Assembly (NCBI GenBank): GCA_024280395.1
Contig: JAJRQG010000063.1
Span: 1-64,000 of the forward strand
Length of the DNA: 64,000 bases
Direction: 5' to 3'
From: Gammaproteobacteria bacterium
GTDB lineage: Bacteria; Pseudomonadota; Gammaproteobacteria; Xanthomonadales; Marinicellaceae
Below are positions 27,447-58,468 of this stretch, in pieces. The notes beneath the pieces are model-generated. The model was not told the DNA's origin, searched no databases, and saw nothing but the letters and a program-made list of their open reading frames with translations. The translations under genes and the position numbers were made by a program. Positions within the stretch are counted from its first letter, which is position 1. The number at the start of each line of letters is the position of its first letter.

Positions 27447-29723
27447 TTATTCAAAACCATCTGCAAACAATACAAGGATTGGTTCAGGAATATGTGTTTT
27501 AAACACCACAAGTGCATTGTCAATACCTGCAGCTACAATTAACCAACTGCCATCGCTGGTAATTGCCAGTGATGTAGGACCATTCATTTTGGTTACTCCT
27601 CCCACCTCATCTTGTTCTAAATCCGCAAACTCTAAATCTCCATAACCAATAGATGTGGTTACATTGTCACGAGTAAATGAAACCATTGTAGAATCATCAA
27701 AGCCCAATACATATGCACGATCATCACTGGGGTTTGTAATGATTGCACTGGGAGAATTCAAACCTATAAAGTCTGGATTGGCCTTGGTGAGTGTGGTATT
27801 AAATGTCAAAACACCATCAGCATTATTTCGATTAAATACAACTACAGCATCATCAGCTCTACCCAATGCATATACTTGTGCACCATCAGCACTAACAACG
27901 AGGTCTGCGGCAGCACCCAAGTCTGTCACACCTCCTATACCTGATTTAAACGAACTCATATAATTTAATTTTCCTGTAGAGATGTCTCTATTGAAAACAT
28001 TCAAAGCAGAACTATTATCAGCAACAACGTAAACATTTTTACCATCTGGTGAAACTTTTAAATTAATTGGTCTATCCATAAATGCAACAGTCACACCTGA
28101 ATCATTGCTGTCATTCACACCATTCTTTTCAGTTTCCAATAGGGTCAACAGCCCTGTCATATCATCTATACTAAATGCAGTTATAGTGTCAGAAGCACTG
28201 CCTGCAGCATACAAATGCAAGCCATCATCACTAATAGCCAAACCATATACTTCTTGCAGCCCAAATTCACCTGCAACTGCTTCAATAAAATTAGTTATGA
28301 AAGTGAGTTCACCAGTGATTGAATCGATACCGAAAACAGACACTGTATTGTTACCACTGGCAGCGGCATACAAATACTTACCATTAGGTGACAACACAAT
28401 TTGCCTGATCAATTTAAAAGAAGCTGTTTCAAAACCGACCGTTGTGTTGTTAACGACCGATAGAAAATTTAAAACGCCACTGCTAAATGAAAAGTGCAAA
28501 AGACTACCATTCCCATCCAATGATGAGACATAGACATGGCGATTATTATTACTAATAGCCACATCTGATGGACTAACCAATTCTGGAACAACACTATTAT
28601 CCACTTCAACGGGATCTTTGGTTTGTTGTTCACGGTTGGCATCCATAATAAATCCAGTTAAAGTGGGTGTAATCAACTGCGCATTATTGACATTACTAAT
28701 TTGCAATTTAATCACCTCAATTCCCTCAACAACAGCATCGGATAAGAAATCTACTGGAATAGTCACTTGTTGCTGTCCTGCGGTAATTATTTTGTTTCCA
28801 GCTGTTTGTGTATAATCAGCACCTTCAGTCGCTGTACCTGCAGCAGTTGTATAGTCAAAACTAATATCTTGCTCAAATGTTCTGGATAAAGTTAAAACGA
28901 AACCTTGAGTTAAAGTACCACTGGCTGGTTCAAACACCACCATGTCATTTCCTCTTAATTCCGGCAAGCCATCATCGTCAAGAATCGTTGCTGTTCCGAT
29001 AGGAAACTGAATAATAGCATTATTAGGATTGGACAAGAACACTTCAAAAGTTTCACTACTTTCAATCAAAGTATCTCCACAAATTTCAACTTCAATCGTC
29101 GTTGATAACGATTGAGCTGCAATTGTCGCCACACCATTTTTATTGACATAATCAAAATCACCCGTACAAGCATCTCCTTCAAGAGCCGATGTAGGAGAAG
29201 TTTGCTGGGTTCTCCAATCTACTGTGACCACTTCATCCGATACTTCTGATAAAGTTATTTGCATACTTAACAAACTTGTTCCTGAATTTCCTTCTAACTT
29301 TTCGCCAGGCAATATATTTAGTACTCCCGAACTAGCCGCCAAATTTAATGGATCAAGATCCAAGCGTTCTGCTGTGCCATAGTTTCCAACCAACACTTCA
29401 GCAACTAAATTTCCATTGATGAATACTGAGGCTGGGTCTCCCGGACGAGCATTACCATGTTTTCTGGGGTCCACATCATCCATAGGAACTCTTAGTGCAT
29501 ATAAGCCACCCAATGAATCATCACTTCCCATCGAATAAATAGCCACTGTCAATAGCTGACTCTCAATAAAGATAGAAATTTCAGAATTGTTGGCTAAAGG
29601 TTCACCAAACCAAGTAGCAGTTCCATACAAAACAAAATCTGGTTGAGACAATTTTGCATGAACTTGACTTGTCATGATTGAAAGAATCAATACGATAAAT
29701 ATCACTTTTTTATTAATTTTCAT
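27447..29723 (-). CDS. Secreted Calx-beta / seven-bladed propeller protein
   Basis: A 758-residue precursor. After a signal peptide (MKINKKVIFIVLILSIMTSQVHA) comes a beta domain, then two Calx-beta domains (about 130-250, 258-365; FDYTTAAGTATEGADYTQTAG is the hallmark of the second), then seven lactonase-like propeller blades (about 375-745, about 53 residues each; pattern SPDGKNVYVV...FNRD...TGKL). The C-terminus ends ILVLFADGFE directly at the stop. Last gene of the five-gene operon, two bases after the 2786-residue gene. Probably a surface or matrix protein; no catalytic residues are evident. Confidence 0.82.
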   Translation of the reverse strand: MKINKKVIFIVLILSIMTSQVHAKLSQPDFVLYGTATWFGEPLANNSEISIFIESQLLTVAIYSMGSDDSLGGLYALRVPMDDVDPRKHGNARPGDPASVFINGNLVAEVLVGNYGTAERLDLDPLNLAASSGVLNILPGEKLEGNSGTSLLSMQITLSEVSDEVVTVDWRTQQTSPTSALEGDACTGDFDYVNKNGVATIAAQSLSTTIEVEICGDTLIESSETFEVFLSNPNNAIIQFPIGTATILDDDGLPELRGNDMVVFEPASGTLTQGFVLTLSRTFEQDISFDYTTAAGTATEGADYTQTAGNKIITAGQQQVTIPVDFLSDAVVEGIEVIKLQISNVNNAQLITPTLTGFIMDANREQQTKDPVEVDNSVVPELVSPSDVAISNNNRHVYVSSLDGNGSLLHFSFSSGVLNFLSVVNNTTVGFETASFKLIRQIVLSPNGKYLYAAASGNNTVSVFGIDSITGELTFITNFIEAVAGEFGLQEVYGLAISDDGLHLYAAGSASDTITAFSIDDMTGLLTLLETEKNGVNDSNDSGVTVAFMDRPINLKVSPDGKNVYVVADNSSALNVFNRDISTGKLNYMSSFKSGIGGVTDLGAAADLVVSADGAQVYALGRADDAVVVFNRNNADGVLTFNTTLTKANPDFIGLNSPSAIITNPSDDRAYVLGFDDSTMVSFTRDNVTTSIGYGDLEFADLEQDEVGGVTKMNGPTSLAITSDGSWLIVAAGIDNALVVFKTHIPEPILVLFADGFE

Positions 29724-38096: not shown

Positions 38097-39908
38097 TTAT
38101 TGGTTTAACACAGTGGTTGCAGCAACACGGCGCAAACTAAAATCACCTTGCACAAATATGGTATTCTTGTGTAAGCCTGTGATGCTTTCACGGAATACAC
38201 CTCCCATGTCTTGTACGCCCCATCCTGGAGAGTCAGCAACTGATGGATAGTAAGGATTATGCACAGAAAAAGAAAACTCCATTTCACGAGTTACTTGCAA
38301 TGCTTCTTGAACGGTAGGCAATCCTTGTTCATCTAAATTATTATGATCAGGATGATATTTATGATAAAAAGGGTTGGTTGGCATGGATGAACCCACCAAT
38401 AAACTGACATTTAACGTTTCTCCAATCGCAAGTCCACCAGTCATTTCCACCTCTAAACCTTCAAAATCATAACCAATCGTACTGTATCTAATTCCAGCTG
38501 ATTGGCCGTTTCTATTGGTAACTCCAGAATAATTTGGAATCAAGCTATCATCGGTTAACAAGACATAATGACCTGGTATATCCACTTCTAAGAAATTGGG
38601 GTTTTTAATGCTGGGTTTAAAAGTACCATCTTGCCACATTTGTACTACGCTTTTTATTAATTTAGCATTACCAATTGAATCTATATGTATGATTATTCTT
38701 AAAATAAATGGATTACCTACAGGCAAAGGTTCTGTTCCGGCTCTTTGTGCCTCACTTACCTTATTTACACGAGCTGTACCAATCCATAATCCTGCATTTG
38801 TAGAGGGGATAGCTTTTGCCTGTACTCCTCCTAACTTTTTAGTTGGTAATACCAGTGGTTGTATAGTGTTGCCACCAGAGTTCATTAAATATCTGATGCC
38901 TTGCTCATTTTTAATACTAAATATTTGTTCCATTCTGTCTTCCAAAAACCCAGCTCTATCAACAGCCATAGTAACAAATACATCTTCACCTGGAAGTAAT
39001 TCAAATACTTTGTTATTCGGCAATAATGGCCATGCAATCTCTCCTGTTTCTGGATCTACATTTTTAAATTTCATTGGCATGGTATTGCCAGCAACCCTAG
39101 AGATAGTAATAAAATTGGTAACATCGCTTAAATTGCTGATAGAGAAATCAAGTTCGGTAAACATACTTCTAAAATCTAAACTTGTTCCTTGCTGAAGAGT
39201 AATATTCATCAAACCTTGAAATGTTGAGGGACCCTGAGTAAATACCCAGTAGGCTTCTCCTGACTTTGTCACACTTGTAAAAGGATCTGTCACTAACTCC
39301 CATATACCTGCAGCACTTAATTTATATATAGGCTGTCCAGCATGAGCATTAGACCCTTCAAAATACTCACCAAATGTGGGCTCGTTACCTGGATCTACTG
39401 GCAGACCTGTAAAAGTAAATGAGTTACTTCTCCAAATGTTCTTTTTTAAACTTGGGGTGCCTGTAATAGTTAAAGTGTGATTCACAGTATCGTCTAATTT
39501 TATCAAATAAGCAGTATTTGCAGAAAGCGTATAAAGATTGGATAAAAATGCTTCTGGTTTGGGCTCTGGAAAATAGCCAAACCATCCATCTAAGCTCAAT
39601 AATCCCTCTGCAGGATCTGTAATGAAGTCTTTGCCCAAATCTTTTGGTATCCACCGCCAAACACTCGATACAGGAATTCCTGAAAATATTGTTTCGATAT
39701 TATCATTTACAGGCAACAATTCTATATTCACTGCATTCCAACCAGGTCTTAATTCAATAGTTTGCTGCATGGTTGCAGTGGCAGAATACAAATTATATGA
39801 CATGAGTAATAGCGTTAAGACAACAACATTTACGATTGTGTTTTTAGTCTGACGGTACATATTTAGCACTCCACTTGATTTTTTATTTGTGTTGTTAAAT
39901 GATTTCAT
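38097..39908 (-). CDS. Secreted beta-rich protein, unknown function
   Basis: A 603-residue precursor with an unusually long n-region before its signal peptide; an alternative ATG at 39860, with GTGGAG upstream, would give a normal signal peptide (MYRQTKNTIVNVVVLTLLLM). The start at 39908 has GGAGG and overlaps the prolyl isomerase stop by one base (TAATG), so both are plausible. The mature part begins with an LRPGWNAVNIELLP motif followed by alternating Trp-rich strands (VWRWIPKDLG; DGWFGYFPEP) and later beta-sandwich-like domains. Not recognised as a named family. It is the third gene of the giant operon. Confidence 0.7.
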   Translation of the reverse strand: MKSFNNTNKKSSGVLNMYRQTKNTIVNVVVLTLLLMSYNLYSATATMQQTIELRPGWNAVNIELLPVNDNIETIFSGIPVSSVWRWIPKDLGKDFITDPAEGLLSLDGWFGYFPEPKPEAFLSNLYTLSANTAYLIKLDDTVNHTLTITGTPSLKKNIWRSNSFTFTGLPVDPGNEPTFGEYFEGSNAHAGQPIYKLSAAGIWELVTDPFTSVTKSGEAYWVFTQGPSTFQGLMNITLQQGTSLDFRSMFTELDFSISNLSDVTNFITISRVAGNTMPMKFKNVDPETGEIAWPLLPNNKVFELLPGEDVFVTMAVDRAGFLEDRMEQIFSIKNEQGIRYLMNSGGNTIQPLVLPTKKLGGVQAKAIPSTNAGLWIGTARVNKVSEAQRAGTEPLPVGNPFILRIIIHIDSIGNAKLIKSVVQMWQDGTFKPSIKNPNFLEVDIPGHYVLLTDDSLIPNYSGVTNRNGQSAGIRYSTIGYDFEGLEVEMTGGLAIGETLNVSLLVGSSMPTNPFYHKYHPDHNNLDEQGLPTVQEALQVTREMEFSFSVHNPYYPSVADSPGWGVQDMGGVFRESITGLHKNTIFVQGDFSLRRVAATTVLNQ

Positions 39909-40906
39909 TATAAATTTCCTCCAGTACCAGGTAGCGCTGGTGGTCTTTTTTTGTTTTTAGAAGCTGCTTTTGACAATGGTTCTATATTAGCCAATAATTC
40001 TTTATTAATCCTAATATCAGCAGAATTTATTAATGACACAATAAATTCTTCTTTAATCTGTTTTTTCTTTTTTTGTAACAAGCTGTTTTTTATACCTTTT
40101 TCTACTCTCGACAATTTTCTTTCTTGTTGTTTTTCTGCTGATACCAATCTAACAATATAAAACCCATTGTCAGTTTCAAGTATGGGCGAGATATCACCAT
40201 CATTTTCTAGCGAGAATAAAGTTTTAACAACCACCTCATCCCACTTATATTTTCTTGATGGGTGATTGATTAACCACCCGATTACACCACCTTGATAACG
40301 AGAACTTCTATCGTCAGAAAATGTTTTTGCTAATTGACCAAAGTGTTTTATTTTGTCATCAAGGTCAGTAATCTTTGCATAAGCTTCTTCTATTTTTTCT
40401 TTTTTCTTCGCCAAAACCTCAGCACTGTCTTTTATTGAAGTTTTTACGTAGATGATAGCACCACGTCTTCTGGCAGGCTTTTCATAAGACTTTTTATTTT
40501 TTTCAAAATACTTTTGTACGTCTAAAGGAGAAACTTTTGCTCTAGCCAATAAAGGCTTTAATTCAAGTTCTAAATACCTATCAATTACTGCTTTCTTGTA
40601 CAAGGACTTAACAGCTTCGTCATCTGCAAAACCTTTTAGCATGGCTTGATTGAACATAACTTCCTGATTGATAAGAAAGGTCAATAATGACTCTCTTTGT
40701 TCAATCTTATGATACTGTCCTGTTTTAAGCCCGCCATGAGACTTCATTTGAGTAATAAATGCCTCTTTACTTATTGCTTTGTTATTAACGACAGCAACTG
40801 TATTGGCATCAATTTTTGCATCTATATCTGTTTGCTCTCGCTGACCAATGTACCAACCAACAAAACCAGAAACCAATAACCCCAACACCATCAATAATTT
40901 ATTCAT
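39908..40906 (-). CDS. Membrane-anchored PpiC-type prolyl isomerase/chaperone
   Basis: A 332-residue protein: N-terminal anchor (KLLMVLGLLVSGFVGWYIG), a SurA/PrsA-like helical N-domain (about 35-140), and a parvulin-like domain (about 145-255; FSDDRSSRYQGGVIGWL and ISPILETDNGFYIVRLV are the PpiC landmarks), then a basic C-terminus (PLSKAASKNKKRPPALPG). It should act in the periplasm on proteins crossing the inner membrane. Its ATG overlaps the stop of the 4535-residue gene (ATGA) and its stop overlaps the next start, so its synthesis is tied to its neighbours. A dedicated folding helper for the giant proteins is the natural inference. Confidence 0.85.
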   Translation of the reverse strand: MNKLLMVLGLLVSGFVGWYIGQREQTDIDAKIDANTVAVVNNKAISKEAFITQMKSHGGLKTGQYHKIEQRESLLTFLINQEVMFNQAMLKGFADDEAVKSLYKKAVIDRYLELELKPLLARAKVSPLDVQKYFEKNKKSYEKPARRRGAIIYVKTSIKDSAEVLAKKKEKIEEAYAKITDLDDKIKHFGQLAKTFSDDRSSRYQGGVIGWLINHPSRKYKWDEVVVKTLFSLENDGDISPILETDNGFYIVRLVSAEKQQERKLSRVEKGIKNSLLQKKKKQIKEEFIVSLINSADIRINKELLANIEPLSKAASKNKKRPPALPGTGGNL

Positions 40907-43900
40907 GGCACGCTCCCTTCAAATCCATCAATGAAAATAATTCTCAACAACACATCTGTATCGGTAGCTGTGTTATTTAACAATTGATAATCTTGTTCTA
41001 CAATTGGAGTTACCATTGTGGCTTCAACCGTATTAGATATTTCAGTTAGTACCAAATTAGGTAATGCTGGATCAACTAATGCTTCTACAACAATTTCTAT
41101 TACTCCACCAGAGGGCAAATTGCCTGTTGCACTGATAACACTTGATGCATTACTTATCAAACATGTCGCTCCATTTGAAGCACTACAAGTCCATGTTCCA
41201 TTTAACAATTCAGCAGGCATTGTTTCAACAATATTTATATTTCCTGCATCAATGGAACCGATATTGTCAATTCTAATAAAGTAGGTGGTTTGAAAACCCA
41301 ATCTCAAAATATTCGAACCATTGCTCTTGGTTACTCTAATATCAATACCTGTTAACAATTCAGTATCTAACATGCTGGTATTGTTATTTAAATCGGGGTC
41401 AAATGTAGTGGCTGTCACTATCGCTGTTGAAGTAATCGTCGTTGGCGTTGCTTCAACCAATCTGTAGTCTATTGCAATCTTCTTATTTTCACCTGCTACC
41501 ATGTAACCGATATCACACAACAGTACTAACGATGTTTGTTCTACACATCTAAATGGTATTTGATAAGTAGCATTGGCAGCAATATCAAATGTCGCCATCA
41601 CATTTCGTGCATCTGATGGGCCAACATTGGTAATATCTATCAAGAAAGGTAAGTTTACGGGACCATCTGGATCATACGGATTGATATCTGAGGTTAATTC
41701 AATCATCACATCTGCAACAATATCCGTGGTATCTGTATCAACGGCATTGTTATTTGATAGATTCGGATCTGTAGCTGGCTGTCTCACTTCAACATCAACA
41801 CTATTGGATATTACTCCAACTTCGGTAGCAGAAGGTAAAAATGCAGTTACTTGATAGGTTAACTGACCATTTGCCGATATATAAGTAATGTCATTAATAT
41901 TACCAGTCCCTGTTGCAGAACAGTTTGATGCCGCATCTGTCATACAAGTCCAAGTCACATTGGTTAACAAACTTGGCATGATATCTGTCACCAAATTATC
42001 CGGAGCATCACTTGGCCCATTATTCGTTACTACTATTTCATAAACAATGGTTTCTCCAGCTATCAAGACTGTTTGGTTATTGGTCTTGGTTACTGCAACA
42101 TCTGCGACCATTGTCACTGTTGTAGAAATCATGATAGTATTGTTACTTAGATCTGTATCTGTATTGAAACCTTCTTCAATAACAATTGCTGTTGCTGAAT
42201 TATCTAGGGTTCCTAGAAAAGCAGGATCAACAGTTGCTGAGATATTAATTTCAACTTGGCCATTAATAGCTACATTTACTATTGTATCAACACTGCCTGT
42301 TCCATTCACATTATTACACAATGATCTACCTGTTGAACTACACAGCCATGTTGCATTAATAATTGCAGCATCAAATATATCAGTAACCCTTACATCCAAT
42401 GCATCACTTGGTCCTGTATTGGTCAAGATTAATGTATATTCAATGGCTTCTCCTGCTATCGCATTAGCAGGTCCCGTTTTAATTATCTCGACGTCTGTTT
42501 CAATAGTAATAGTCGTTGTATCTAAGCCGAAATTATTTGCCAAATTATCATCACCTGCTCCAAGAATTGGAGTTATGGCTGCTGTATTATTTATAATTCC
42601 ACGTGCCGAAGGATGCACCAATGCCTGAACGTTAATACCACCTGCTGAGCCTGGTGTCATAAATAAATTTGCAGCAGCGATATTGGGATCAGTGTTATCA
42701 ACCAAGCATTCAGAGTGTGCAGTAATACGCAAAGCAACCAATGCACTTGAAACTTCCGAGACAACCAAAATATTGATTCCATCTGTTACCAGTGATTTGG
42801 GTTCATTCATTAATGCAGAACCGTGAACAATATTGGTAAATACATCTACCAATGCTAAAGTGCCTGTACTGATATTTCTATCAAACAAACTGACAGAATC
42901 CGTGTTTGCATCTGTAATTAATAAACGTCCACCATCTGGTGTTATTGTTACAGAAGTCGGTGTCATTATTTCTCCCGAATCTGCATCACCCACTTGTAAG
43001 ACACGTTGATAAGTTAAAGTACCATCAATGTCATTTCTTGAAAAGGTTAACAACGAGCTATCAGTGGAAGCAACAGCATAAAAATATCTGCTACCTGGAC
43101 TCATCGTTATGGATTGTAAACCATCCATTCCTGCCACGGTCAACCCTCCGTTGCTGTCTCCACTTCTAATGACTTCTACAAAAGTCAGGGATTGAGTTGT
43201 TAGATCTCTCGAAAATACTGCTATTGCCGAAAAGAATTTAGTAGACGAGGTGTACACAAACTTTCCATCATAGGAAATCTTTATATCGTTAATTCCTGCT
43301 ATCACATCAACCACCGGAATCGTTCCAAAACCATCTTTAATGCGTTCAACAAATGACAGCATTCCAGTACTTTCATCCCTTGCCAAAACAGTAATTGAAT
43401 CGGAACCTTTTGCAGCAACATAAACAGCCTTGTTATCAGGGGTAACAACCAATCCAACAGGGCCAGTCATTCCCACAATACCATCCACTCCTGAACTAAC
43501 TTTTTGAATAAAATCCAATAATCCCGTATTGGTATCTCGGCTAAAGACCACTACACTATTGGCCATTTCACTGACAATATAGAGATATTGTTCTGTTGAA
43601 TCAAAACTTAGACTAGCAGCACCTGCCAATCCTTCAACCATACCACCTATTAGCATATCGCCTTCATTCACAACTGAATCAAAAGTTAATTCACCCGATA
43701 TATTTCTGTTGAATATGCTTACTGAACCATCTATTGAACTGGTGGCATAAGCATACAGACCATCACTGCTTACGATGACATCACTGACACCATTTAAACC
43801 ATTGGCCATATCGTCAGAGTACTCTTGGCTAAACTGTACCGTTTTATTCAAAGCACATTGCCATTGAATCGTTCCTTCAAAAAATCCAGCATTGTCTGTT

Positions 43901-46900
43901 GGGAACAACGGAACCATATCTACCAAGCTTGCGTTAACAGTACTGGGGCCTGCTGCAAAGGCAGAAATATCATAAGCCAAAGGTGTACCTGCAACCACTT
44001 CTGTCAAACCATCTGTTTTGATCACACTTAAATCTGAAATCGGTGTTAAAGGATCTGTATCAGTGGCACTGTTGTCTGGAGAGAATAATTCTACAAAACC
44101 TGTCCCAGTCAATGCAGTAGCAGTGTTAGATAAGACTCCTGTAACTGCTGGCTGTACATCGCCTTGAACAGTATAAGTTAAGTGACCACCTGAAGATATA
44201 TCTGCCATATCGTTCACATTGCCTGTTCCTTGAGATTGACAATTTGAGCCATTGAGCAAAGAAGCCAACACCAAGTCATCGCTCAAAGCATAAAAGAAAC
44301 CACCTTGTGGATCAATCAATATTTCACTGACGTTATCTAGCCCAGCAATAGTTGAGGTATCGTATACAACATTTAGCGCTGATAAGACTTCATTTTCTAA
44401 TGCAAACAAAGTGACCGAACCACTAATACTACTGGCCACATACAACTCATTGCCAGTATCACTGAATACCAAACTTTCGGGTCCTTCCAATGCACTAACA
44501 CTGGTATCACCATGATGAATGACATAGTTGTAGCTTAACTCTCCTGTTAATGCATTCATATCAAATACACTGACCGCATCACTGGCATAACTTGCTACAT
44601 AAACCTTGCCTGCTTGAATAATGACATCCCTGGGTTGTTTTAACACAGATCCTGCGACTTCAAAATCTTGAATAACATCAGCCGGAACCAATATACCAGA
44701 GCCTGCTGTACGTTTGAATGATGCCAAAGAATCATTGGACTCGCCGGCTACCAACAAGAATTGACCGGTTGCATCAAACACCATTGCCTCAACACCACTT
44801 AACCCTTCGACACCAGTTAACACAGTATTGAAACTTAATACACCTGTAATAGGATTGCGATTAAATTGGGCTATGGCATTGTCTAATTTAGCTGCTACAT
44901 AAACATGTATACCATCAATAGATAGCACAATATCTGTAGCTCCACCTAAACCATTAACACCGGACAACCCATCTGTAAGTATGCCTACAAAAGACAATTG
45001 ATTAGTCATTCCATCAATTGAGAAAGTAACAACTGAATCATCGACATCACTGGCTACATATAAATATTTCTGATCAGGGCTTAAGGCAACTCCGTTGGCA
45101 CCTGCTAGTCCACTGACTCCATTTGTTGCATTGGTTAAGCGTTGAATTTCAAGCAATTCACCTGTTCTTAAATTTCTTTCATAAACCAAAACCACACTAG
45201 AACCAGATGAAACACCGGTTACATAGGCATGTGTTCCAGATTGATTGATCACCATGTCATTGTGAAAATCAAGATCATTATAGCTGGTAAAATTATTAAT
45301 TAAATCATTCCCATCGGCATCATCCAATAACCCTGGCTGAGGAAAAGCTTGACAACTCCATGTCACATTTGAAATTTCTTCAGGAACTATATCAGTTATT
45401 AGAACATTGTTGATATCAGCTGGTTCATTGTTGCCTGGCATCATTGCATCATTTGAGACCACAATGGTATAAGTAACTGAAGTTCCTGGAATTACTGCAT
45501 TTACCCCATTTTCTTTTGTTACAACCAAATTTACAGCGGGTGACAAAAGAGTATCATCATCTGTTGCTGAATTATTGGTTAAATCTGGGTCAGAAATTGC
45601 ATCACTCGGATTGGTTGATGAGGCTACTGTCGCGGTATTGACCAATACACCTGTCACATCACTTTTAATCATCCCTTTGGCAATAATTTCAACACTAGAG
45701 CCCACAGGCAAATCAGCCACAATATTAACATTACCTGTGTGTAAACCCATGGGGCACATGGCGCCAGCAACAGGGAAACATTCATAAGTAATTTGTTCAA
45801 ATTCTGGAGGAAATACATCTACTATTTCAGCTTTCTTAACATTACTTGGACCTGCATTACTGACTACTATTGTATAAGTCACTTCGGTTCCAGGAGAAAC
45901 ACCTCCTTCTCCATCTATTAAAGATTGTTGGAATACAATATTACCATTTTGACCGATTGTTCCCGAGTTATCGCGGCCAAAAGCGGCAATTGAATTATCA
46001 CCCGATGCTGCAATGTACACATGTGTATCATCACTCGGTAAAAACACACCTGAGGCGCCACTCAACCCATCAATATTTTCACCTGGCAATAACAGAGGAT
46101 CTCCATCATTCAATGCATTAACAAATAGCAAAGTACCATCTGTGGTGTTTCTATCAAATTGAACCAATGCATTTTCGGTAAAGCCTGCTACGTACAAAGA
46201 TGTTTCATCGGCATTTAACATTAAATCTCTTCCCAATGTTAATCCTTCTACACTACTGGTTCCATTCTGTTTAAATTCTACAAAAGTTAATACACCTGTT
46301 GAAACATCTCTACTAAAGACTACTACAGATTGCTCTGCTGATCCCAATACATAGACGAAATCACCATCATTGGCTTTAGATAGTGTCAAAGCTGATGCGC
46401 CTGATAAGCCAGCTACACCATCTACTCCATTGGTGTATGATGCCATATATGACAATTGACCAAAGCCTAAACTGGACGAATTTGGATTTCTTAGAAAGAC
46501 ATTAACACTGTTATCAATATCAGAAGTGACATAGACATGCTTGCCATCCACTGAAACAGCAACATCACTGGCAGAAATTAAGCCAGAAGCTCCATCCACA
46601 GCATTTTGTAAACTTTGTTCAAAACTTAATCTGCCATCAGTTTGATCAACTGTAAACACTGCCATGGAATTGGTTAAAGGTCCAGTTGCATAAAGATGCA
46701 TACCATCATCACTCAAAGCAATAGACTTAACACCTTCAATCCCAATTACTCCAAAAACACCACTGCTGTGTCTTTCTAAAAAGGTTAATGAACCATCTGC
46801 TAAACTTCTGGAAAACACCACAACAGAATTATCGCCAGAGCCTGCAGCATATAAAGTTTTACCATCCGCACTTAATAACACATCAGAAACAGCCAACAAA

Positions 46901-49900
46901 CCTGAAACGCCATCAATACCATTTTGTACATTTCCAAGATAGTTTAAATTGCCAAAATCGGCATCAGCTCCATTGTCATTTCTTGCAAAAATTCCTATGG
47001 CATTTTCTCCTTTTGCTGCCACATAAAGATTTTCATTGTTACCTGTCACCTTCACAGCACCAGATAAACCATCGTATTGCGACAAACCATCTGTTTTGGT
47101 AATCATTAAATCTGCAACAGGATTAACAGAATCCGTATCCGTATCGGTATTATTGGTGTTTACATTATCTGAACCACTACAAGTCGACAAGTCCATTGGT
47201 ACTGGCGTATAACAACTGGACACACTGGCTGTATTTGAGATTGAACCAGTTACGCCTGCTGCCACTGTAGCATTAACAAGAAATGTTAAACTGCCATTGA
47301 CCGCTATATCAACATTGGTTTGAATATCTCCAGTCCCGCCTGCCAAACAAAATGAATCATCTAACCTTGATAGTACAGCTATACCGTTGTCTTTACTCCC
47401 AGCAACATAAACAAAATTTCCTGATACATCTACCACAACTGAAATTGCACCATCTAAACCATCGACATTGGATGTAATGTCATTAATGATTCCGCCAAAT
47501 GTTAGATTCCCTGTATCTAAGTTTCTTGCAAACCACACGACTGAATCTGATTGTTCACTGGCAACATAAACATGCCTCCCATCAACACTTGCAGTTACTT
47601 CTGCAGGAGACAGTAACCCAATAACATTATCAGTATTTTGATAGAGCGCCTGTTGCAAACTTAAACTACCATAGGTTGAGTCACTTAATGGTACATCATT
47701 CTTACGAGTAAACACATATACCGCATTATTTGACGCACTGCTCACATAGACTTGTTTGCCATCATTACTTACATGTATAGATGAAACTCCAGTTAAAGTT
47801 ACTCCAGTTGAACTTGAATCTTGAACTTCTACCAATGACAAAGAACCATCAACCAAGTTTCGCTTATAGACGCCCAATTTACCGTTGTTAACACCACTGG
47901 TATAAATAGAGTTATTGTCACCAGAAATAGCCAATGCATTAACACCGGATAGTCCTAACGAACCATTAGCATCACCTTGAGTGATGACGGAAGTTGGTGT
48001 TAACACACCCGTCATCAAATCCCTTGAAAATACAACCACCGAGTTGTCGTTGGCACCAGCAACATAGATATTCTTGCCATCATTAGAAGCCACCAAGCTC
48101 ACCGCTTGATTTAAACCAAATGCACCACTTGAAAAATTATGGTTGGCCACCCAAGATAATGTTAAACCACTACTATCACTGGCTTTAAATGCGACCAACG
48201 AATCATCAACTTTACTGGCCACATATACATCATTGTCGATAACGATGACATCACGTGCTCCTGTTAAATTTATATTGCCTGTCGCTTGAACAAAATCTCC
48301 TGCTTCAAGAACTTGTGTTAATTCTCCAGTGGTTTGATTAATTGAGAAAGCCAGCAAACCATTGTCTAACACACTGGTTGCCAACACATGAGGACCAAGT
48401 CCTGCCAAATCTGAGGCAATTGCCAGAGAAGAGACACCTTGCAATCCTACAGTATTATTGTTGCCATTCTTAACCACTTGTGTAAATGCCAATGATCCAG
48501 AACCTGTTGCATCACATGTCCAGTTAACAGATCCGGAATCAAAATCACTGCCCAATAAATCAGTAATGGTGATCACTTCAGATGCAGTTGATTTGGCATT
48601 ACTGGGTCCAATATTACTGACTACTATTTCGTATTGAATGGGCTCACCGGCAATTGCAGATAATCTGTTGTCTGTTTTGGTTATGGTTAAATCTGTTTTT
48701 GGCACCAAAGTTATATTGTCTAAATCACAATTTTCATTGGCCATACCAGCTGCAGAAGTACAGTTATTAACTGGCATAATGGTTGTAAAATTATCTGGAG
48801 AAATTAGACTCGCTTCAGTCGTTAATACACCTGTTGCATCTGGTCTAATTTTTGCAGTAACGGAATAAGTCAATGTTCCGTTTACACCAACATCAACAAT
48901 ATCATCGATATTACCAGATCCTTTTGCACTACAAGAAGACCCTGATCCTAGAACAAATGCAGAAATAGCATTGGCTGAGAAACCTGCTGTATAGACGTGT
49001 TTTGAATCCTTACTGACAACTAAATCATAAATTTGACTCAGGACTTCTACTTGATTGGCATTGTCAGTTTCTACCTGAATAGCAACTTGTACTTCAATCA
49101 ACGCCAACTGCCCAAATGTTACACTATTGGAGTTTTGTTCTCTATCCATCATAGAAATAGCATTGTCAAACTCAGACCCAACGTACACCTTACTGCCATC
49201 ATTGCTAACAGCTACAGTTCGGGCTCCTAATAAATAATCAAAACCAGCGATGCCATCTGAATAAGAGGTAATATTCGACAAACGTCCAAAATTGTCTGAC
49301 CCAGTTACGCGTTTTAATACTGTTAATCGACTGTCATTGGCAGAAACCACATAAACATGCTCGCCATCTGGAGAAATAGCCAAATCCATGGGTTGATCAC
49401 CAACAGAAAATAAACTCTGCATAAATGTAATCTTACCATCCATTGCATCTCTTGATAGCACCACAACACTGTCATCTATGCTATTGGCTACTATCACATG
49501 TTGACCATCTGGACTTATTGCTATAGACCTGGCACCAGCCAATCCATTAACTCCTGCATCACCATTGGCTACTGCATCTACAAAAGTTAGTTTACCATCG
49601 GCTGAATTTATCGAATAATGAGCCACTGATGCTTCAAATTTACCAGCAATGTATAAGTCTTGGCTTGTAGCATCAACTGCCAATGCTGCAACGCCCAACA
49701 ATCCATCAATGGTATTGCTAGCATGCGAATGGGATTCTACTTGTGTCAACGTACCATCAGAAGCCGTTTTAAATACCGCCAAAGTTGACTGGTCAGCACT
49801 GCCCACATACAAATATTTATCATTGGGAGTAATGACCATAGAATCAACATCTATAATATTACTAATACCACTGTCATTGTTGTTATAACTGGCAATAAAA

Positions 49901-52900
49901 TTCAAGTGAAGACCTTTTGTTTCATTGGTCGACCCTTTGGATTTGTCTCTTGCGAATACAGAAATACTGTTATCACCCAAGCCTGCTGCATAAACATACT
50001 TACCATCATAGCTAACCACAACAGCACTGGCTCCCAACAAACCGTCAACCACACCACCTGTGTCTATTGTGTCATTGTATCCATCAATTTCAGATTCTAC
50101 AAAAGCAAAAACAGGATCTGGTTGGCGTCTTTCCAACACAGTTAAAGTTTTACCTTGAAGCCCTGAAGCTGTTGTCATCACATGCTTGCCATCAATCGTA
50201 ATGATCACATCATTAACTTCATCCAATCCAACAACATTAATTTTTTCTTGCTTGTTTAACGCTCCTTGAGAAGTTCTGTTTAATACAAAAACAGCATCCG
50301 CAATCGGGTTTCCAACAAACACATGCTGTCCATCTTTACTGATTGCAACCGATGTTAAACCCACTAAAGTTTCAGTAGCATTGAATAATAAGTTAATATC
50401 ATTATAAGCAGTATTGTAGGCAACTGCTATCGGTCCACCACCTGAAATTTGATCAAGTACTACCAATTTATTGGTGCCTGTAGAAGCCAGGTATAAATTC
50501 ATCCCATCATCACTTGAAACGACATCGTTGACACTCCCAATGTTGGCATCATTAAGGGTATTAATAAACGTTAAATCGCCCGTCATGCTATTGCTAGTAT
50601 AAGCATTAACATTACCGCCTGTTGCGTCTACCACATAGACAATTGAACCATCCGGATTTTGCGCCATTGCTCCTGCATCTGACTGTAATATTGTACTCAC
50701 ATGTGCAAGCAAACCTGAACCCGTATCTCGAGAATAAACATTGATTTCGTCATCGCCAGTTATATAAACATATTTCTGATTGTTACTAAGAAGAATATCT
50801 ACGGGTGCTGCAGGGATATTATCTGCCATTGGACCCAAATAAGTTAACTTTCCAAAATTGGCTGAGAACGGATTTGTATCTCGCCCAAATGTGGCTATTG
50901 TAGGTGCCATACCTGTTACTACATCTGACAATACATACAAATGTTGTCCAGAATTACTCATACTCATCGCTAAAGGCGTCTCTATCCCATCAACAGAATC
51001 TACACCTTGTGTGATTGTTTCAACAATATTAATGTCGCCAAATTGACTACCAACAACCGTATTGCGCTTAAATACATACAATTTTGAATCAATTCCATTT
51101 ATATTGGGCGAAGTAACATAAATATGATTGTCATCTGGACTAGCAATCATATGCGTGCCACTGGCACTTAGTAAAGATGTTTGGAATGCCGTTAAGCCAC
51201 CTGGCACAGGTGATACAGCTGAACACGACCACTCTACATCACTTAGTTCTGGAGGAAACACATCCACAACATTTGCCCCAAAAGCATCATCAGGACCTTC
51301 ATTCGTTACATTAATGGTATAGCTAACTGGCTTGCCAGGAGTAGCTACAGATGGAGATCCACTGTTTGAAATGGTTAATTTTGAGGTTCCGGACAAAGAA
51401 TACTCAACACTGTCGGAATTATTACTATCAACAGGATCAAATCCAGCCGTAGTTGCACTGGCAACATTGACAACTTTACCTGTTTTATTGGCTTGGGTGC
51501 TAACTTCAACCATAAAAGTAGCTGTAGAGTTCACCTCCAGTGACACTTGTGTATTAATTGCTGCATTGGTTACCGGCCCTGCGCTCACACAAGATCCCTG
51601 ACCGGTAATGGCACATGTCCAACTGCGTGTGGACAGATCGAATTTCAAATCACTCAATTGGTCAACAACATTGATATTACTTGCACTCGAAGGTCCTAAA
51701 TTTGTAACCACTATTTTATAAGTAAGATTAGTAATTGTAGGATCATTAGTATTTTGCGTTATTGGCCCTAAAGTTTTTTCCAACTTAATATCAGACACCT
51801 CTCCAAGAGAGGTTGTATCAACAATATTGGTATTATTAAGCGGATTCGTTTCATCAACATCTGCTGGCAAAGTCGCAGTCACGCTATTAGATATGATACC
51901 TGTCGCATTGGCTGCAATATCACCAGTTATGGTAAAAGTGACCTCTGTTTGAGCTTCTAAATCTATGCTTGCATTTAACTGATCACTATTCTCAGGTGAA
52001 GTGGGTGAACCCAAACCGCAAATGTTACTTAGCGTATTACAACATGCCCCAGCATCACTGGTCGTACAAGTCCATGAAATACTGTTAGTTTCATACCCTC
52101 CTAAATTTGTTGGATACAAAGGCATAACATCTGTAACCGTAATCCCAATTGCAGGAACAAAACCGTTATTCCTGACCACAATGTCATAACTGTTACTTGT
52201 TCCGGATGCTGTTGTTATTTTACCATCTGTTTTAGTTACAACTAAATCTGTTCCATTGGTAATCTCGTTAGAAACATCGTCAGTCAACGCATCGGCACCT
52301 ACATTTTGTGTAGTCAGAGGCTCTGCAATACTAATAGTAACCGTATTACACACTTCATTGTCCGCTGCGGTGGCTATATCACAATCACTGCCACCTGCAG
52401 ATTTCAAACGTGTATGTATTCTAATTTCTGAGCTATTACCACTAGCAACACGCAATGGCACACTGAGCACTTCCCCTGTTCCTTTTACAATCTCAGAAGT
52501 AAGCGGACAATTATCTGGAGTTATATCTCCATCAATCGCTCCTCTGTCACTGCTACAATACTCCCAGCAAGGTGTCGTTAATACAGGGTCCTCAGGCTGA
52601 AGGTTGACATTACAATTTGTTGGGTGATCTCCCAATAAGTTAACATCTAAATTATCGACTAAATTCACACCATTTTCTGTTTGCACAAACACGCCATTGG
52701 TATCAATCATAAAACCAGCACCTAAGTCACTGGGACCAGCATTACTGACCACTATTGAATAGGTGAAAGGTTCATTGGGGACCAAGCTGCCATTTTTACT
52801 GGTCTTGGTGATGGATAAATTTACTTTTCTGTCAAGAACATCATCACTATCAGTGCCTGATACGTTGGTTGTACCTCTAACTCCCATAGGATTGTTTGCT

Positions 52901-54510
52901 GTCGCCGTATAAACCAACGGATTGGTTACCGCACTAGAGTCAAAAGCACCTGTAATGGTGAATGTTGCATTATCTGAAGCTGGAATATTGACTAAGGTAT
53001 TAACATTATTAACATTAGATGCAGTGCCACAAGAAGTGATATTATCATCCAATAAACAGGTCCAAGATACACCTGCCGTTTCAAATTCAGCAATGACATT
53101 GTCAATTACAGATACTCCGGTTACATCAGATGGCCCAGTATTGCCTACTACCAAAGTGAACAACCCATTTTCACCTGGTGTATATGTAGTTTTAGAATCA
53201 TCCAATGTTAATGATAAATTTGATTCAGGGTCATAAATCAATGACTTGCTGTCATTAACAGGACTGGTACCTGTGACCACTGGTGTTCCAGTAGGATTGG
53301 TTGCCGTAACCGTATATATTAATGGGTCAGTTGTGGTTGCAGAATCATAGCTTACTGTCACTGTATAGGTGACACTGCCACCAGCAACAATATCTGCAGT
53401 GGTATTCAAGCGTGAATTAACAGTCCCAGCGGTACAACTACTACCAACTGAAAAAGAACAAGTCCAACTGATGGCAGAAAATTCACTTAAATTATTATCA
53501 ATAACCGTGGCTGCTAATACATCACTGTCTCCACTGTTACTTACTGTTACCGTATAAGTTTGACCATTTCCTGGAGTATAATTGGTATCTCCAGAGATTG
53601 TTGTATCCACAACAATGGACAAATTTGATACCAAATTTAAAGCATCAGAATCTGTTGCTATTGCAGGTGTTGGACCACTGGGATCAGTAGCATTGGTATC
53701 AAGTATATTGGCACTTACTGCATAAACCAAATTAATGGTTCTAATCCCGCTATCATAATCTGCCGTTGCCACTATTATCGTAGTTTCACCAGAGGCTACA
53801 TCTAATGACAAATCATTTAGCGGAGCTGGTGGTGAACAACTGCTACTAACAGTCTGTGGCGTACACGTATAACCAGTCACTGTCATACCAGGTGGCACAA
53901 CATGTGAAAAGTCTACATTCAATGCATCACTGGGCCCTGCATTGAGCACTTGAATTGTATAATCAACACCAGAAACCCCTGGTGTGTAGGTAGTAGAACT
54001 ATCATTAACATTAACATTGATATCTGTTTGTGAAGCGCGTGTAATGGTTTTACTATCCATATCATCATTGTTGGTGCCAGTATTATTGGTGGCAACCAAA
54101 AAATCCATATCAGTAAAAACATCAGACAATATCTGGACATTGGTAAAAGTAAAAACCACACCATCCGTATCAGCCAAATCAATCAATGTATTGATTGCTC
54201 CTGTACCACCTGCAGTAAGACAATCAGAAGCTCCCGTTGGAACTACAGTGCATGTCCAAGCCAGGCCTGTCAACTTAGCAATAATATCGAAAGAGGCTGT
54301 TACCGATAAACCTGAAATAGTTCCGGCGGCTGCAGTGGGAGTTTTTTTAACCGTAAAGCTATAGGAACTACCTTGACTTGTACCTGGAGTAAAAGTACCA
54401 ACTGTTCCCGGTGTTATTTCAACAATGACATCAATTTGCGCCATTACCAACCCAGAAAAAAGTACCAATAAGGCACACAAGCCATTTTTAAATGTGATTC
54501 CACTATTCAT
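40903..54510 (-). CDS. Giant secreted DUF11 / beta-propeller protein (4535 residues)
   Basis: A signal peptide (ALLVLFSGLVMAQ) is followed by about 16 DUF11-like Ig-fold units. Most have a W-T-C or similar then a second Cys 7-11 residues later. Four units carry beta-propeller blocks between those cysteines (C1096/C1860, C1999/C2388, C3053/C3424, C3552/C3935), and one carries a propeller at an earlier loop (about 2476-2868). I count 42 blades of about 53 residues with the YVTN/lactonase pattern (SPDGKHVYVA...VFSRD...TGxLTF). The C-terminus ends RIIFIDGFEGSVP. First gene of the operon; its ribosome site (GGGAA) is modest. Likely a surface adhesin or matrix fibre; no enzyme motif is visible. Confidence 0.85.
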   Translation of the reverse strand: MNSGITFKNGLCALLVLFSGLVMAQIDVIVEITPGTVGTFTPGTSQGSSYSFTVKKTPTAAAGTISGLSVTASFDIIAKLTGLAWTCTVVPTGASDCLTAGGTGAINTLIDLADTDGVVFTFTNVQILSDVFTDMDFLVATNNTGTNNDDMDSKTITRASQTDINVNVNDSSTTYTPGVSGVDYTIQVLNAGPSDALNVDFSHVVPPGMTVTGYTCTPQTVSSSCSPPAPLNDLSLDVASGETTIIVATADYDSGIRTINLVYAVSANILDTNATDPSGPTPAIATDSDALNLVSNLSIVVDTTISGDTNYTPGNGQTYTVTVSNSGDSDVLAATVIDNNLSEFSAISWTCSFSVGSSCTAGTVNSRLNTTADIVAGGSVTYTVTVSYDSATTTDPLIYTVTATNPTGTPVVTGTSPVNDSKSLIYDPESNLSLTLDDSKTTYTPGENGLFTLVVGNTGPSDVTGVSVIDNVIAEFETAGVSWTCLLDDNITSCGTASNVNNVNTLVNIPASDNATFTITGAFDSSAVTNPLVYTATANNPMGVRGTTNVSGTDSDDVLDRKVNLSITKTSKNGSLVPNEPFTYSIVVSNAGPSDLGAGFMIDTNGVFVQTENGVNLVDNLDVNLLGDHPTNCNVNLQPEDPVLTTPCWEYCSSDRGAIDGDITPDNCPLTSEIVKGTGEVLSVPLRVASGNSSEIRIHTRLKSAGGSDCDIATAADNEVCNTVTISIAEPLTTQNVGADALTDDVSNEITNGTDLVVTKTDGKITTASGTSNSYDIVVRNNGFVPAIGITVTDVMPLYPTNLGGYETNSISWTCTTSDAGACCNTLSNICGLGSPTSPENSDQLNASIDLEAQTEVTFTITGDIAANATGIISNSVTATLPADVDETNPLNNTNIVDTTSLGEVSDIKLEKTLGPITQNTNDPTITNLTYKIVVTNLGPSSASNINVVDQLSDLKFDLSTRSWTCAITGQGSCVSAGPVTNAAINTQVSLEVNSTATFMVEVSTQANKTGKVVNVASATTAGFDPVDSNNSDSVEYSLSGTSKLTISNSGSPSVATPGKPVSYTINVTNEGPDDAFGANVVDVFPPELSDVEWSCSAVSPVPGGLTAFQTSLLSASGTHMIASPDDNHIYVTSPNINGIDSKLYVFKRNTVVGSQFGDINIVETITQGVDSVDGIETPLAMSMSNSGQHLYVLSDVVTGMAPTIATFGRDTNPFSANFGKLTYLGPMADNIPAAPVDILLSNNQKYVYITGDDEINVYSRDTGSGLLAHVSTILQSDAGAMAQNPDGSIVYVVDATGGNVNAYTSNSMTGDLTFINTLNDANIGSVNDVVSSDDGMNLYLASTGTNKLVVLDQISGGGPIAVAYNTAYNDINLLFNATETLVGLTSVAISKDGQHVFVGNPIADAVFVLNRTSQGALNKQEKINVVGLDEVNDVIITIDGKHVMTTASGLQGKTLTVLERRQPDPVFAFVESEIDGYNDTIDTGGVVDGLLGASAVVVSYDGKYVYAAGLGDNSISVFARDKSKGSTNETKGLHLNFIASYNNNDSGISNIIDVDSMVITPNDKYLYVGSADQSTLAVFKTASDGTLTQVESHSHASNTIDGLLGVAALAVDATSQDLYIAGKFEASVAHYSINSADGKLTFVDAVANGDAGVNGLAGARSIAISPDGQHVIVANSIDDSVVVLSRDAMDGKITFMQSLFSVGDQPMDLAISPDGEHVYVVSANDSRLTVLKRVTGSDNFGRLSNITSYSDGIAGFDYLLGARTVAVSNDGSKVYVGSEFDNAISMMDREQNSNSVTFGQLALIEVQVAIQVETDNANQVEVLSQIYDLVVSKDSKHVYTAGFSANAISAFVLGSGSSCSAKGSGNIDDIVDVGVNGTLTYSVTAKIRPDATGVLTTEASLISPDNFTTIMPVNNCTSAAGMANENCDLDNITLVPKTDLTITKTDNRLSAIAGEPIQYEIVVSNIGPSNAKSTASEVITITDLLGSDFDSGSVNWTCDATGSGSLAFTQVVKNGNNNTVGLQGVSSLAIASDLAGLGPHVLATSVLDNGLLAFSINQTTGELTQVLEAGDFVQATGNINLTGARDVIVIDNDVYVASKVDDSLVAFKASDSSGLTLSWVANHNFSSGAFGLNQAVSLVASNDGKNIYVAGANDNSVVVFSRDLMTGVLTPTSVITQGDANGSLGLSGVNALAISGDNNSIYTSGVNNGKLGVYKRNLVDGSLSLVEVQDSSSTGVTLTGVSSIHVSNDGKQVYVSSASNNAVYVFTRKNDVPLSDSTYGSLSLQQALYQNTDNVIGLLSPAEVTASVDGRHVYVASEQSDSVVWFARNLDTGNLTFGGIINDITSNVDGLDGAISVVVDVSGNFVYVAGSKDNGIAVLSRLDDSFCLAGGTGDIQTNVDIAVNGSLTFLVNATVAAGVTGSISNTASVSSCYTPVPMDLSTCSGSDNVNTNNTDTDTDSVNPVADLMITKTDGLSQYDGLSGAVKVTGNNENLYVAAKGENAIGIFARNDNGADADFGNLNYLGNVQNGIDGVSGLLAVSDVLLSADGKTLYAAGSGDNSVVVFSRSLADGSLTFLERHSSGVFGVIGIEGVKSIALSDDGMHLYATGPLTNSMAVFTVDQTDGRLSFEQSLQNAVDGASGLISASDVAVSVDGKHVYVTSDIDNSVNVFLRNPNSSSLGFGQLSYMASYTNGVDGVAGLSGASALTLSKANDGDFVYVLGSAEQSVVVFSRDVSTGVLTFVEFKQNGTSSVEGLTLGRDLMLNADETSLYVAGFTENALVQFDRNTTDGTLLFVNALNDGDPLLLPGENIDGLSGASGVFLPSDDTHVYIAASGDNSIAAFGRDNSGTIGQNGNIVFQQSLIDGEGGVSPGTEVTYTIVVSNAGPSNVKKAEIVDVFPPEFEQITYECFPVAGAMCPMGLHTGNVNIVADLPVGSSVEIIAKGMIKSDVTGVLVNTATVASSTNPSDAISDPDLTNNSATDDDTLLSPAVNLVVTKENGVNAVIPGTSVTYTIVVSNDAMMPGNNEPADINNVLITDIVPEEISNVTWSCQAFPQPGLLDDADGNDLINNFTSYNDLDFHNDMVINQSGTHAYVTGVSSGSSVVLVYERNLRTGELLEIQRLTNATNGVSGLAGANGVALSPDQKYLYVASDVDDSVVTFSIDGMTNQLSFVGILTDGLSGVNGLGGATDIVLSIDGIHVYVAAKLDNAIAQFNRNPITGVLSFNTVLTGVEGLSGVEAMVFDATGQFLLVAGESNDSLASFKRTAGSGILVPADVIQDFEVAGSVLKQPRDVIIQAGKVYVASYASDAVSVFDMNALTGELSYNYVIHHGDTSVSALEGPESLVFSDTGNELYVASSISGSVTLFALENEVLSALNVVYDTSTIAGLDNVSEILIDPQGGFFYALSDDLVLASLLNGSNCQSQGTGNVNDMADISSGGHLTYTVQGDVQPAVTGVLSNTATALTGTGFVELFSPDNSATDTDPLTPISDLSVIKTDGLTEVVAGTPLAYDISAFAAGPSTVNASLVDMVPLFPTDNAGFFEGTIQWQCALNKTVQFSQEYSDDMANGLNGVSDVIVSSDGLYAYATSSIDGSVSIFNRNISGELTFDSVVNEGDMLIGGMVEGLAGAASLSFDSTEQYLYIVSEMANSVVVFSRDTNTGLLDFIQKVSSGVDGIVGMTGPVGLVVTPDNKAVYVAAKGSDSITVLARDESTGMLSFVERIKDGFGTIPVVDVIAGINDIKISYDGKFVYTSSTKFFSAIAVFSRDLTTQSLTFVEVIRSGDSNGGLTVAGMDGLQSITMSPGSRYFYAVASTDSSLLTFSRNDIDGTLTYQRVLQVGDADSGEIMTPTSVTITPDGGRLLITDANTDSVSLFDRNISTGTLALVDVFTNIVHGSALMNEPKSLVTDGINILVVSEVSSALVALRITAHSECLVDNTDPNIAAANLFMTPGSAGGINVQALVHPSARGIINNTAAITPILGAGDDNLANNFGLDTTTITIETDVEIIKTGPANAIAGEAIEYTLILTNTGPSDALDVRVTDIFDAAIINATWLCSSTGRSLCNNVNGTGSVDTIVNVAINGQVEINISATVDPAFLGTLDNSATAIVIEEGFNTDTDLSNNTIMISTTVTMVADVAVTKTNNQTVLIAGETIVYEIVVTNNGPSDAPDNLVTDIMPSLLTNVTWTCMTDAASNCSATGTGNINDITYISANGQLTYQVTAFLPSATEVGVISNSVDVEVRQPATDPNLSNNNAVDTDTTDIVADVMIELTSDINPYDPDGPVNLPFLIDITNVGPSDARNVMATFDIAANATYQIPFRCVEQTSLVLLCDIGYMVAGENKKIAIDYRLVEATPTTITSTAIVTATTFDPDLNNNTSMLDTELLTGIDIRVTKSNGSNILRLGFQTTYFIRIDNIGSIDAGNINIVETMPAELLNGTWTCSASNGATCLISNASSVISATGNLPSGGVIEIVVEALVDPALPNLVLTEISNTVEATMVTPIVEQDYQLLNNTATDTDVLLRIIFIDGFEGSVP
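42709..43854 (-). repeat. Insertion block 5: one seven-bladed propeller
   Basis: Residues about 3553-3934, between C3552 (IQWQCALN) and C3935 (HSECLVDN). Seven blades are countable. The four units after this block (from about residue 3990) are plain DUF11-like domains. Confidence 0.72.
44242..45351 (-). repeat. Insertion block 4: one seven-bladed propeller
   Basis: Residues about 3054-3423, between C3053 (VTWSCQAFP) and C3424 (GSNCQSQGTGNV). Seven blades are countable. Confidence 0.72.
45903..47085 (-). repeat. Insertion block 3: propeller at a different DUF11 loop
   Basis: Residues about 2476-2869. Seven blades lie between the first strand of a DUF11 unit (ADLMITKTDGL) and its second (VSPGTEVTYTIVV), not between the cysteines. 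The inter-cysteine loop of this unit (ITYECFPVAGAMCPMG) is short and intact. Confidence 0.7.
47350..48513 (-). repeat. Insertion block 2: one seven-bladed propeller
   Basis: Residues about 2000-2387, between C1999 (NWTCDATG) and C2388 (SFCLAGGTGDI). Seven blades are countable, and the DUF11 sequence resumes at once after the second cysteine. Confidence 0.75.
48934..51222 (-). repeat. Insertion block 1: two tandem seven-bladed propellers
   Basis: Residues about 1097-1859 of the giant protein. By eye it holds 14 blades, that is two full seven-bladed propellers, between C1096 (VEWSC) and C1860 (SSCSAKGSGNI) of a DUF11 unit. Blades share the features DGxxVYVxS and a V-F-x-R turn. It is twice the length of the other blocks. 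Confidence 0.75.
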
Positions 54511-58465: not shown

Positions 58466-58468
58466 AGT

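Follow-up and report, generated by a model that had tools for sequence, protein, structure and literature searches.

Arrays of domains are commonly read as beads on a string. Does this reading hold for a 4535-residue protein of a member of the Marinicellaceae, in which DUF11 (Ig-like) units and beta-propellers occur in one chain, or are the propellers placed inside the DUF11 units? The protein is encoded in the window, by which we mean the whole 64,000-nucleotide stretch of DNA that was analysed. A preliminary description of the window had placed its gene at 40903-54510 and had proposed that propellers were inserted into one loop of the host fold. The open reading frame is indeed present there, on the minus strand (Table 1). 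The nested architecture of this protein (hereafter the giant) is well supported, as described below.

The giant reaches the Pfam gathering scores of both families: 320.8 bits (against 24.6) in 11 stretches for DUF11 (PF01345), and 445.5 bits (against 21.7) in 14 stretches for Lactonase (PF10282). TIGR01451 repeats (NCBIfam) are likewise present. Three HMMs were built from the giant itself, representing the N-half of DUF11, the C-half of DUF11, and the propeller blade. Because these profiles are derived from the same protein, it is the orthologues that provide an independent test of the domain map. The blade HMM finds 42 blades. They form six groups of seven, which together with full-length fold matches gives six seven-bladed propellers of the Lactonase type. 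The first element of the DUF11 array behind the signal peptide is an N-half, and the last is a C-half. The N-half continues directly into the C-half in plain units, and this continuity is broken by propellers in five units.

In plain DUF11 units the W-x-C motif is followed by a second Cys, for which a distance of 7-11 residues had been given. This is correct in general, but the spacing is 16 in the unit with residues 815/831. Another DUF11-like unit (window 52276-52854, residues 553-745) has no plain hairpin and carries a short Cys-rich insert (six Cys, residues 633-721). The four widely spaced pairs reported before (C1096/C1860, C1999/C2388, C3053/C3424, and C3552/C3935) are found at exactly these residues, and the sequence between them is propeller sequence as claimed, with 14, 7, 7, and 7 blade matches, respectively. 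On either side of these long gaps, the N-half is matched to its end with 64-79 bits (profile position 67-68 of 68), and the match to the C-half begins again at profile position 1 (56-74 bits). That is, ordinary DUF11 sequence runs up to W-x-C and resumes directly at the second Cys, just as had been observed. While all four of these units stand, the longest insert consists of two propellers, and a further propeller (residues 2481-2868) had been missed. This one is located in another loop, after strand A of its host, where the N-half profile is cut at positions 28/27 around 390 residues. Two loops of the host fold, rather than one, are thus used for insertion.

Table 1. Features of the giant gene and its neighbours (positions in the window; residues are those of the giant).
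Feature	Position	Strand	Evidence
Giant ORF, 4535 aa: signal-peptide-like N-terminus, DUF11 array, six propellers, FIDGFE-type tail	40903..54510	-	ORF list, Pfam, custom HMMs
Unit 1 host DUF11, N-half (1030-1096, W-S-C end)	51223..51423	-	78.9 bits, profile 1-68
Unit 1 insert, two tandem 7-bladed propellers (1097-1859), C1096-C1860	48934..51222	-	14 blade matches
Unit 1 host DUF11, C-half (1860-1919)	48754..48933	-	64.3 bits, profile 1-60
Unit 2 host DUF11, N-half (1927-1999)	48514..48732	-	N-half HMM; AF2 strands
Unit 2 insert, one 7-bladed propeller (2000-2387), C1999-C2388	47350..48513	-	7 blades; pLDDT mostly >85; WD40 fold match
Unit 2 host DUF11, C-half (2388-2448)	47167..47349	-	C-half HMM; AF2 strands
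First strand of next DUF11 host (2453-2480, 'ADLMITKTDG')	47071..47154	-	N-half profile 1-28
A-B loop insert, one 7-bladed propeller, whole four-strand blades (2475-2870)	45901..47088	-	7 blade matches at 2481-2868
Remainder of A-B-split DUF11 host (2871-2984), plain C2911/C2919 hairpin	45559..45900	-	N-half profile 27-67, C-half 1-61
Unit 3 host DUF11, N-half (2979-3053)	45352..45576	-	N-half HMM
Unit 3 insert, one 7-bladed propeller (3054-3423), C3053-C3424	44242..45351	-	7 blade matches, last weak
Unit 3 host DUF11, C-half (3424-3484)	44059..44241	-	73.7 bits
Unit 4 host DUF11, N-half (3480-3552)	43855..44073	-	N-half HMM
Unit 4 insert, one 7-bladed propeller (3553-3934), C3552-C3935	42709..43854	-	7 blade matches, last weak
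Unit 4 host DUF11, C-half (3935-3996)	42523..42708	-	56.3 bits
C-terminal tail of the giant, IIFIDGFEGSVP	40906..40941	-	FxDGFE-near-stop pattern
PpiC/parvulin-type peptidyl-prolyl isomerase, 332 aa; start overlaps the stop of the giant	39908..40906	-	Pfam Rotamase 1.8e-12
603-aa protein, conserved partner gene	38097..39908	-	40-65% identity across two phyla
2786-aa protein: SBBP propeller N-terminus and very conserved region of ~2000 residues	29726..38086	-	Co-occurrence with operon
758-aa protein: Calx-beta and lactonase-type propeller, LFADGFE tail	27447..29723	-	Pfam

Structure prediction with AlphaFold2 (AF2) for residues 1930-2985 (20 aligned rows) gives a pLDDT of 87.9 and a pTM of 0.52, the latter meaning that the relative placement of the domains is unsure. 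In unit 2, four host strands (model residues 12-17, 28-37, 49-55, and 67-73) precede a complete seven-bladed propeller and three (467-470, 478-487, and 494-505) follow it, with both junctions modelled at high confidence. In the host split at the A-B loop the division is 1+6, with strand 539-544 ahead of the propeller and the remaining strands from 947. In neither host is one half alone a complete Ig domain, and we infer that the host fold closes around its insert. The unit 2 propeller (model 73-455) matches seven-bladed WD40 chains end to end (Z about 35-36) and the A-B propeller (model 562-938) matches 6-phosphogluconolactonase (6nau/1ri6, Z 38). Note that the Foldseek and VIA match lists are filled by propellers, so that the host Ig missing there carries no meaning. 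When the plain DUF11 units were used as a profile against PDB sequences, no significant solved relative of DUF11 was found. For unit 1 (residues 1030-1925, six rows, pLDDT 76.1) the prediction is only partly informative: the propellers are good, but the host Ig is unreliable, and this model was left out of the argument for host closure. The possibility that the unit 1 insert is a single 14-bladed ring was rejected, because its second seven blades (model 436-827) match complete seven-bladed WD40 structures on their own (Z about 35-37).

The two loops appear to receive propellers in two circular registers. By sequence, the first element of each hairpin insert is an outer D strand and the last is the C strand of blade 7. 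Both ends would thus fall in the final blade, next to each other (1+3 closure). In the hairpin that follows the fourth host strand (W-x-C ... C), one unit carries two such propellers and three units carry one each. The A-B loop insert consists of seven whole A-B-C-D blades, a register that would suit the loop after the first host strand. The DUF11 domains would thus act as brackets for propeller heads in a tandem stalk. In the model of unit 2, the junction Cys (model residues 70 and 459) are located just beyond the first and last aligned propeller residues, and a disulfide between such Cys would lock the head to the stalk.

Conservation adds to this picture. When contigs of 84,980 species genomes were searched with short patterns, full-length matches were found in Marinicella and in one Acidobacteria metagenome-assembled genome (MAG). 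The order of halves and blades is identical to that of the giant in L013, L032, L047, L050, and L014, and also in five further Marinicellaceae regions, all of 4522-4537 aa (one is apparently on the same contig as L013). Three additional Acidobacteriota proteins have the same layout and are 4921, 5017, and at least 4804 aa long; the last exceeds the examined stretch, with 5091 aa in its complete reading frame. The Acidobacteriota proteins have one extra nested propeller near the N-terminus. In one of them (L166, G929:C1:108000-127900) four more blades, with a DUF11 C-half directly after them, stand at the start of the stretch and hint at an eighth nested propeller. The nested arrangement, for which a profile search had been suggested, is present together with neighbouring 603-aa and 2786-aa genes in Marinicellaceae and four Acidobacteriota genomes, and nowhere else in the samples that were searched. 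The giant occurs in 4 of 396 Acidobacteriota, and among 398 genomes of its own phylum the nested-unit alignment has an end-to-end match only in its own genome; only three candidates were scored per genome in both searches, so that these counts do not prove absence elsewhere.

In 12 full or near-full homologues from the two phyla, the gap between N-half and C-half falls into only three classes (0-25, 362-413, and 753-815 residues), which are zero, one, or two propellers. Such a trimodal gap over 12 homologues in two phyla excludes chance. The A-B split is present in 11 of the 12. Nesting of propellers in DUF11 hosts, as read from sequence and model, is thus supported by profile continuity, insert lengths in whole multiples, conservation in the 12 homologues, and the AF2 model.

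The suggested disulfide closure gains indirect support. In nine Marinicellaceae sequences (that of the window and eight others with 44-55% identity to it) all 42 mature Cys are invariant, compared with 21.7% of all residues, and the sole variable Cys of the giant is in the signal peptide. Together with the position of the junction Cys just outside the propeller strands in the AF2 model, this makes a disulfide that locks head onto stalk the most likely arrangement. In a quick tree of the propellers, each Marinicellaceae position forms its own clade and U1b of both phyla are joined (99). The deep forks are unresolved, so one insertion followed by duplication and several insertions are indistinguishable.

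The tail of the giant may be of a wider kind. The FxDGFE pattern near a stop occurs at about 37 sites in the genome, including 40906-40941 and 27447-27467 of the window, while reversed-pattern controls gave 0 and 1. The Acidobacteriota homologues have a longer tail, FADGFESGDTSRWS. The FxDGFE tail has the look of a so far undescribed signal for sorting or processing at the C-terminus.

The giant gene has conserved neighbours. In the Marinicellaceae loci it is adjoined by the PpiC isomerase gene, after which come the genes of the 603-aa and 2786-aa proteins, in this order. In Acidobacteriota loci the order is giant, 603 aa, 2786 aa, with the Calx-beta/propeller gene next where the contig extends (a similar gene of 1280-1307 aa follows the 2786-aa gene in two Acidobacteriota), and PpiC is located at the far end in one locus. 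The 603-aa neighbour, which has no Pfam match, occurs in 10 of the 33 family genomes; in a sample of 273 other genomes of the class it was not found, its own genome aside. All tested operon-bearing genomes have the 2786-aa protein, and it was absent from the six operon-less genomes of the family that were examined. Its ~2000 C-terminal residues are extremely conserved between the two phyla and have no Pfam or PDB relative. Its N-terminal SBBP propeller resembles CylK, and at residues about 280-440 an InhA-like MAM jelly-roll (a weak Pfam match, below the cut-off, in orthologue L164) seems to be set into this propeller, which would be the reverse nesting. Upstream of the giant there are a 602-aa SpoIID-domain protein (window 55018-56826) with a related tail, LLFVDSFEE, and Proton_antipo_M proteins (NADH:quinone oxidoreductase/Mrp antiporter type; window 57020-61923).

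What would such a protein do? The giant is predicted to be secreted. A signal-peptide-like start, conserved Cys, an adjacent foldase, and the DUF11 stalk suggest that it is extracellular, where its Ig units would form a fibre. Propellers are frequent binding platforms, and lateral binding heads (for adhesion or matrix) are therefore the most likely role. We read the giant as a secreted, disulfide-rich DUF11 stalk with lateral propeller heads that are probably used for binding, and give this a probability of roughly two in three. The result would be a long oxidised stalk with heads at its sides; the adjacent PpiC isomerase would help to fold it, and the 603-aa and 2786-aa proteins, which are conserved along with the giant, would be its working partners.

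The main alternative to binding heads is docking inside a larger complex. The giant would then be a structural or assembly part of a surface or secretion complex with the 603-aa and 2786-aa proteins, whose tight co-occurrence and gene order in two phyla are in line with this, as is the fact that the 2786-aa partner is more conserved than the giant itself (46-72% versus 32-55% identity). Against it, no known secretion or assembly domain was found in the partners. We consider it rather unlikely, if the strongest of the alternatives. Less probable still is that the propellers are working enzymes, lactonase-type or other, carried on a stalk. Although the best families are Lactonase (PF10282) and the 6-phosphogluconolactonase family PRK11028 (NF008258), and 6nau and 1ri6 are among the nearest solved folds, the whole protein misses the NCBIfam equivalog cut-off of PRK11028 (171.2 versus 370 bits), identity to the solved enzymes is about 16-22%, and six divergent copies per chain would fit display more than metabolism. 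A reading in which the true unit is a C-half plus the following N-half (a circularly permuted DUF11), with propellers between complete domains, is very improbable: a tandem N-C-N-C array can be parsed both ways by sequence alone, but the C-N parse orphans both ends of an array that has its N-half first and its C-half last, AF2 places a lower-confidence linker of ~20-30 residues between C-half and next N-half while the inner junction of unit 2 is of high confidence, the insert at 2475-2870 splits a host in either parse, and serial comparison proteins have a complete N-C DUF11 ahead of the propeller.

Returning to the stalk with lateral heads, a broader proposal may tentatively be made, for which the odds are clearly below even. 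DUF11 domains may be general mounting brackets, into two loops of which closed propellers in two registers are set, singly or paired, and locked by disulfides; with the 603-aa and 2786-aa proteins they would form a multi-head surface machine common to Marinicellaceae and Acidobacteriota. The giant is a case in which whole propellers are repeatedly grafted into Ig-like loops (two loops, two registers) and kept across two phyla. This layout is a natural template for stalk-displayed heads with disulfide clamps. It also implies that half-length DUF11 matches in annotations may be split domains, and the locus points to an uncharacterised multi-gene surface system of marine bacteria.

Nested domains in surface proteins are already known; nesting of propellers in DUF11 was not found described in the literature searched. 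Nothing on the giant turned up in searches that paired DUF11 with propellers or with Marinicella, which is weak evidence of novelty. In integrin beta, the beta-I recognition domain is inside a loop of the Ig-like hybrid domain, but this is a eukaryotic receptor with an I-domain insert in single copy. The pilus-1 tip adhesin RrgA of Streptococcus pneumoniae has D3 within D2 and D2/D3 within D1, with internal covalent cross-links (PMC5333627). It shares the nested layout (that of the giant being read from sequence and AF2 strand order), and no sequence relation is claimed. RrgA differs in several respects: it has a single nested head of a non-propeller fold, isopeptide bonds take the place of disulfides, the protein is sortase-anchored in a Gram-positive bacterium, and its D2 is given as non Ig-like (PMC5333627) while the hosts in the giant are Ig-like DUF11. 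The 7651-aa Ig-like adhesin of Mobiluncus mulieris is also a very long array with covalent cross-links including disulfides; the abstract gives 51 Ig-like repeat domains and does not mention propeller heads (PMC10619420). In BapP of Pseudoalteromonas tunicata, a marine surface adhesin with a demonstrated biofilm role, a predicted beta-propeller is found alongside numerous beta-sandwich repeats of the Ig-like type (PMC12153261). Unlike in the giant, the single 5-bladed propeller of BapP is N-terminal and in series, the repeats are Calx-beta and BIg_9, and secretion is possibly of type 1. An archaeal S-layer protein (1l0q, YVTN propeller and PKD; Z 36.4) similarly joins a 7-bladed propeller to an Ig-like domain, but in tandem, according to its title, and not nested. 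DUF11 and lactonase families are found in one long protein in MAGs of Thioploca, Parabeggiatoa, and Thiomargarita as well (L030, L019, and L040), where DUF11 is finished ahead of the propeller. In these serial propellers the D strand comes first and the C strand last, as in the hairpin inserts, and a propeller with such adjacent ends is an obvious candidate for grafting into a hairpin.
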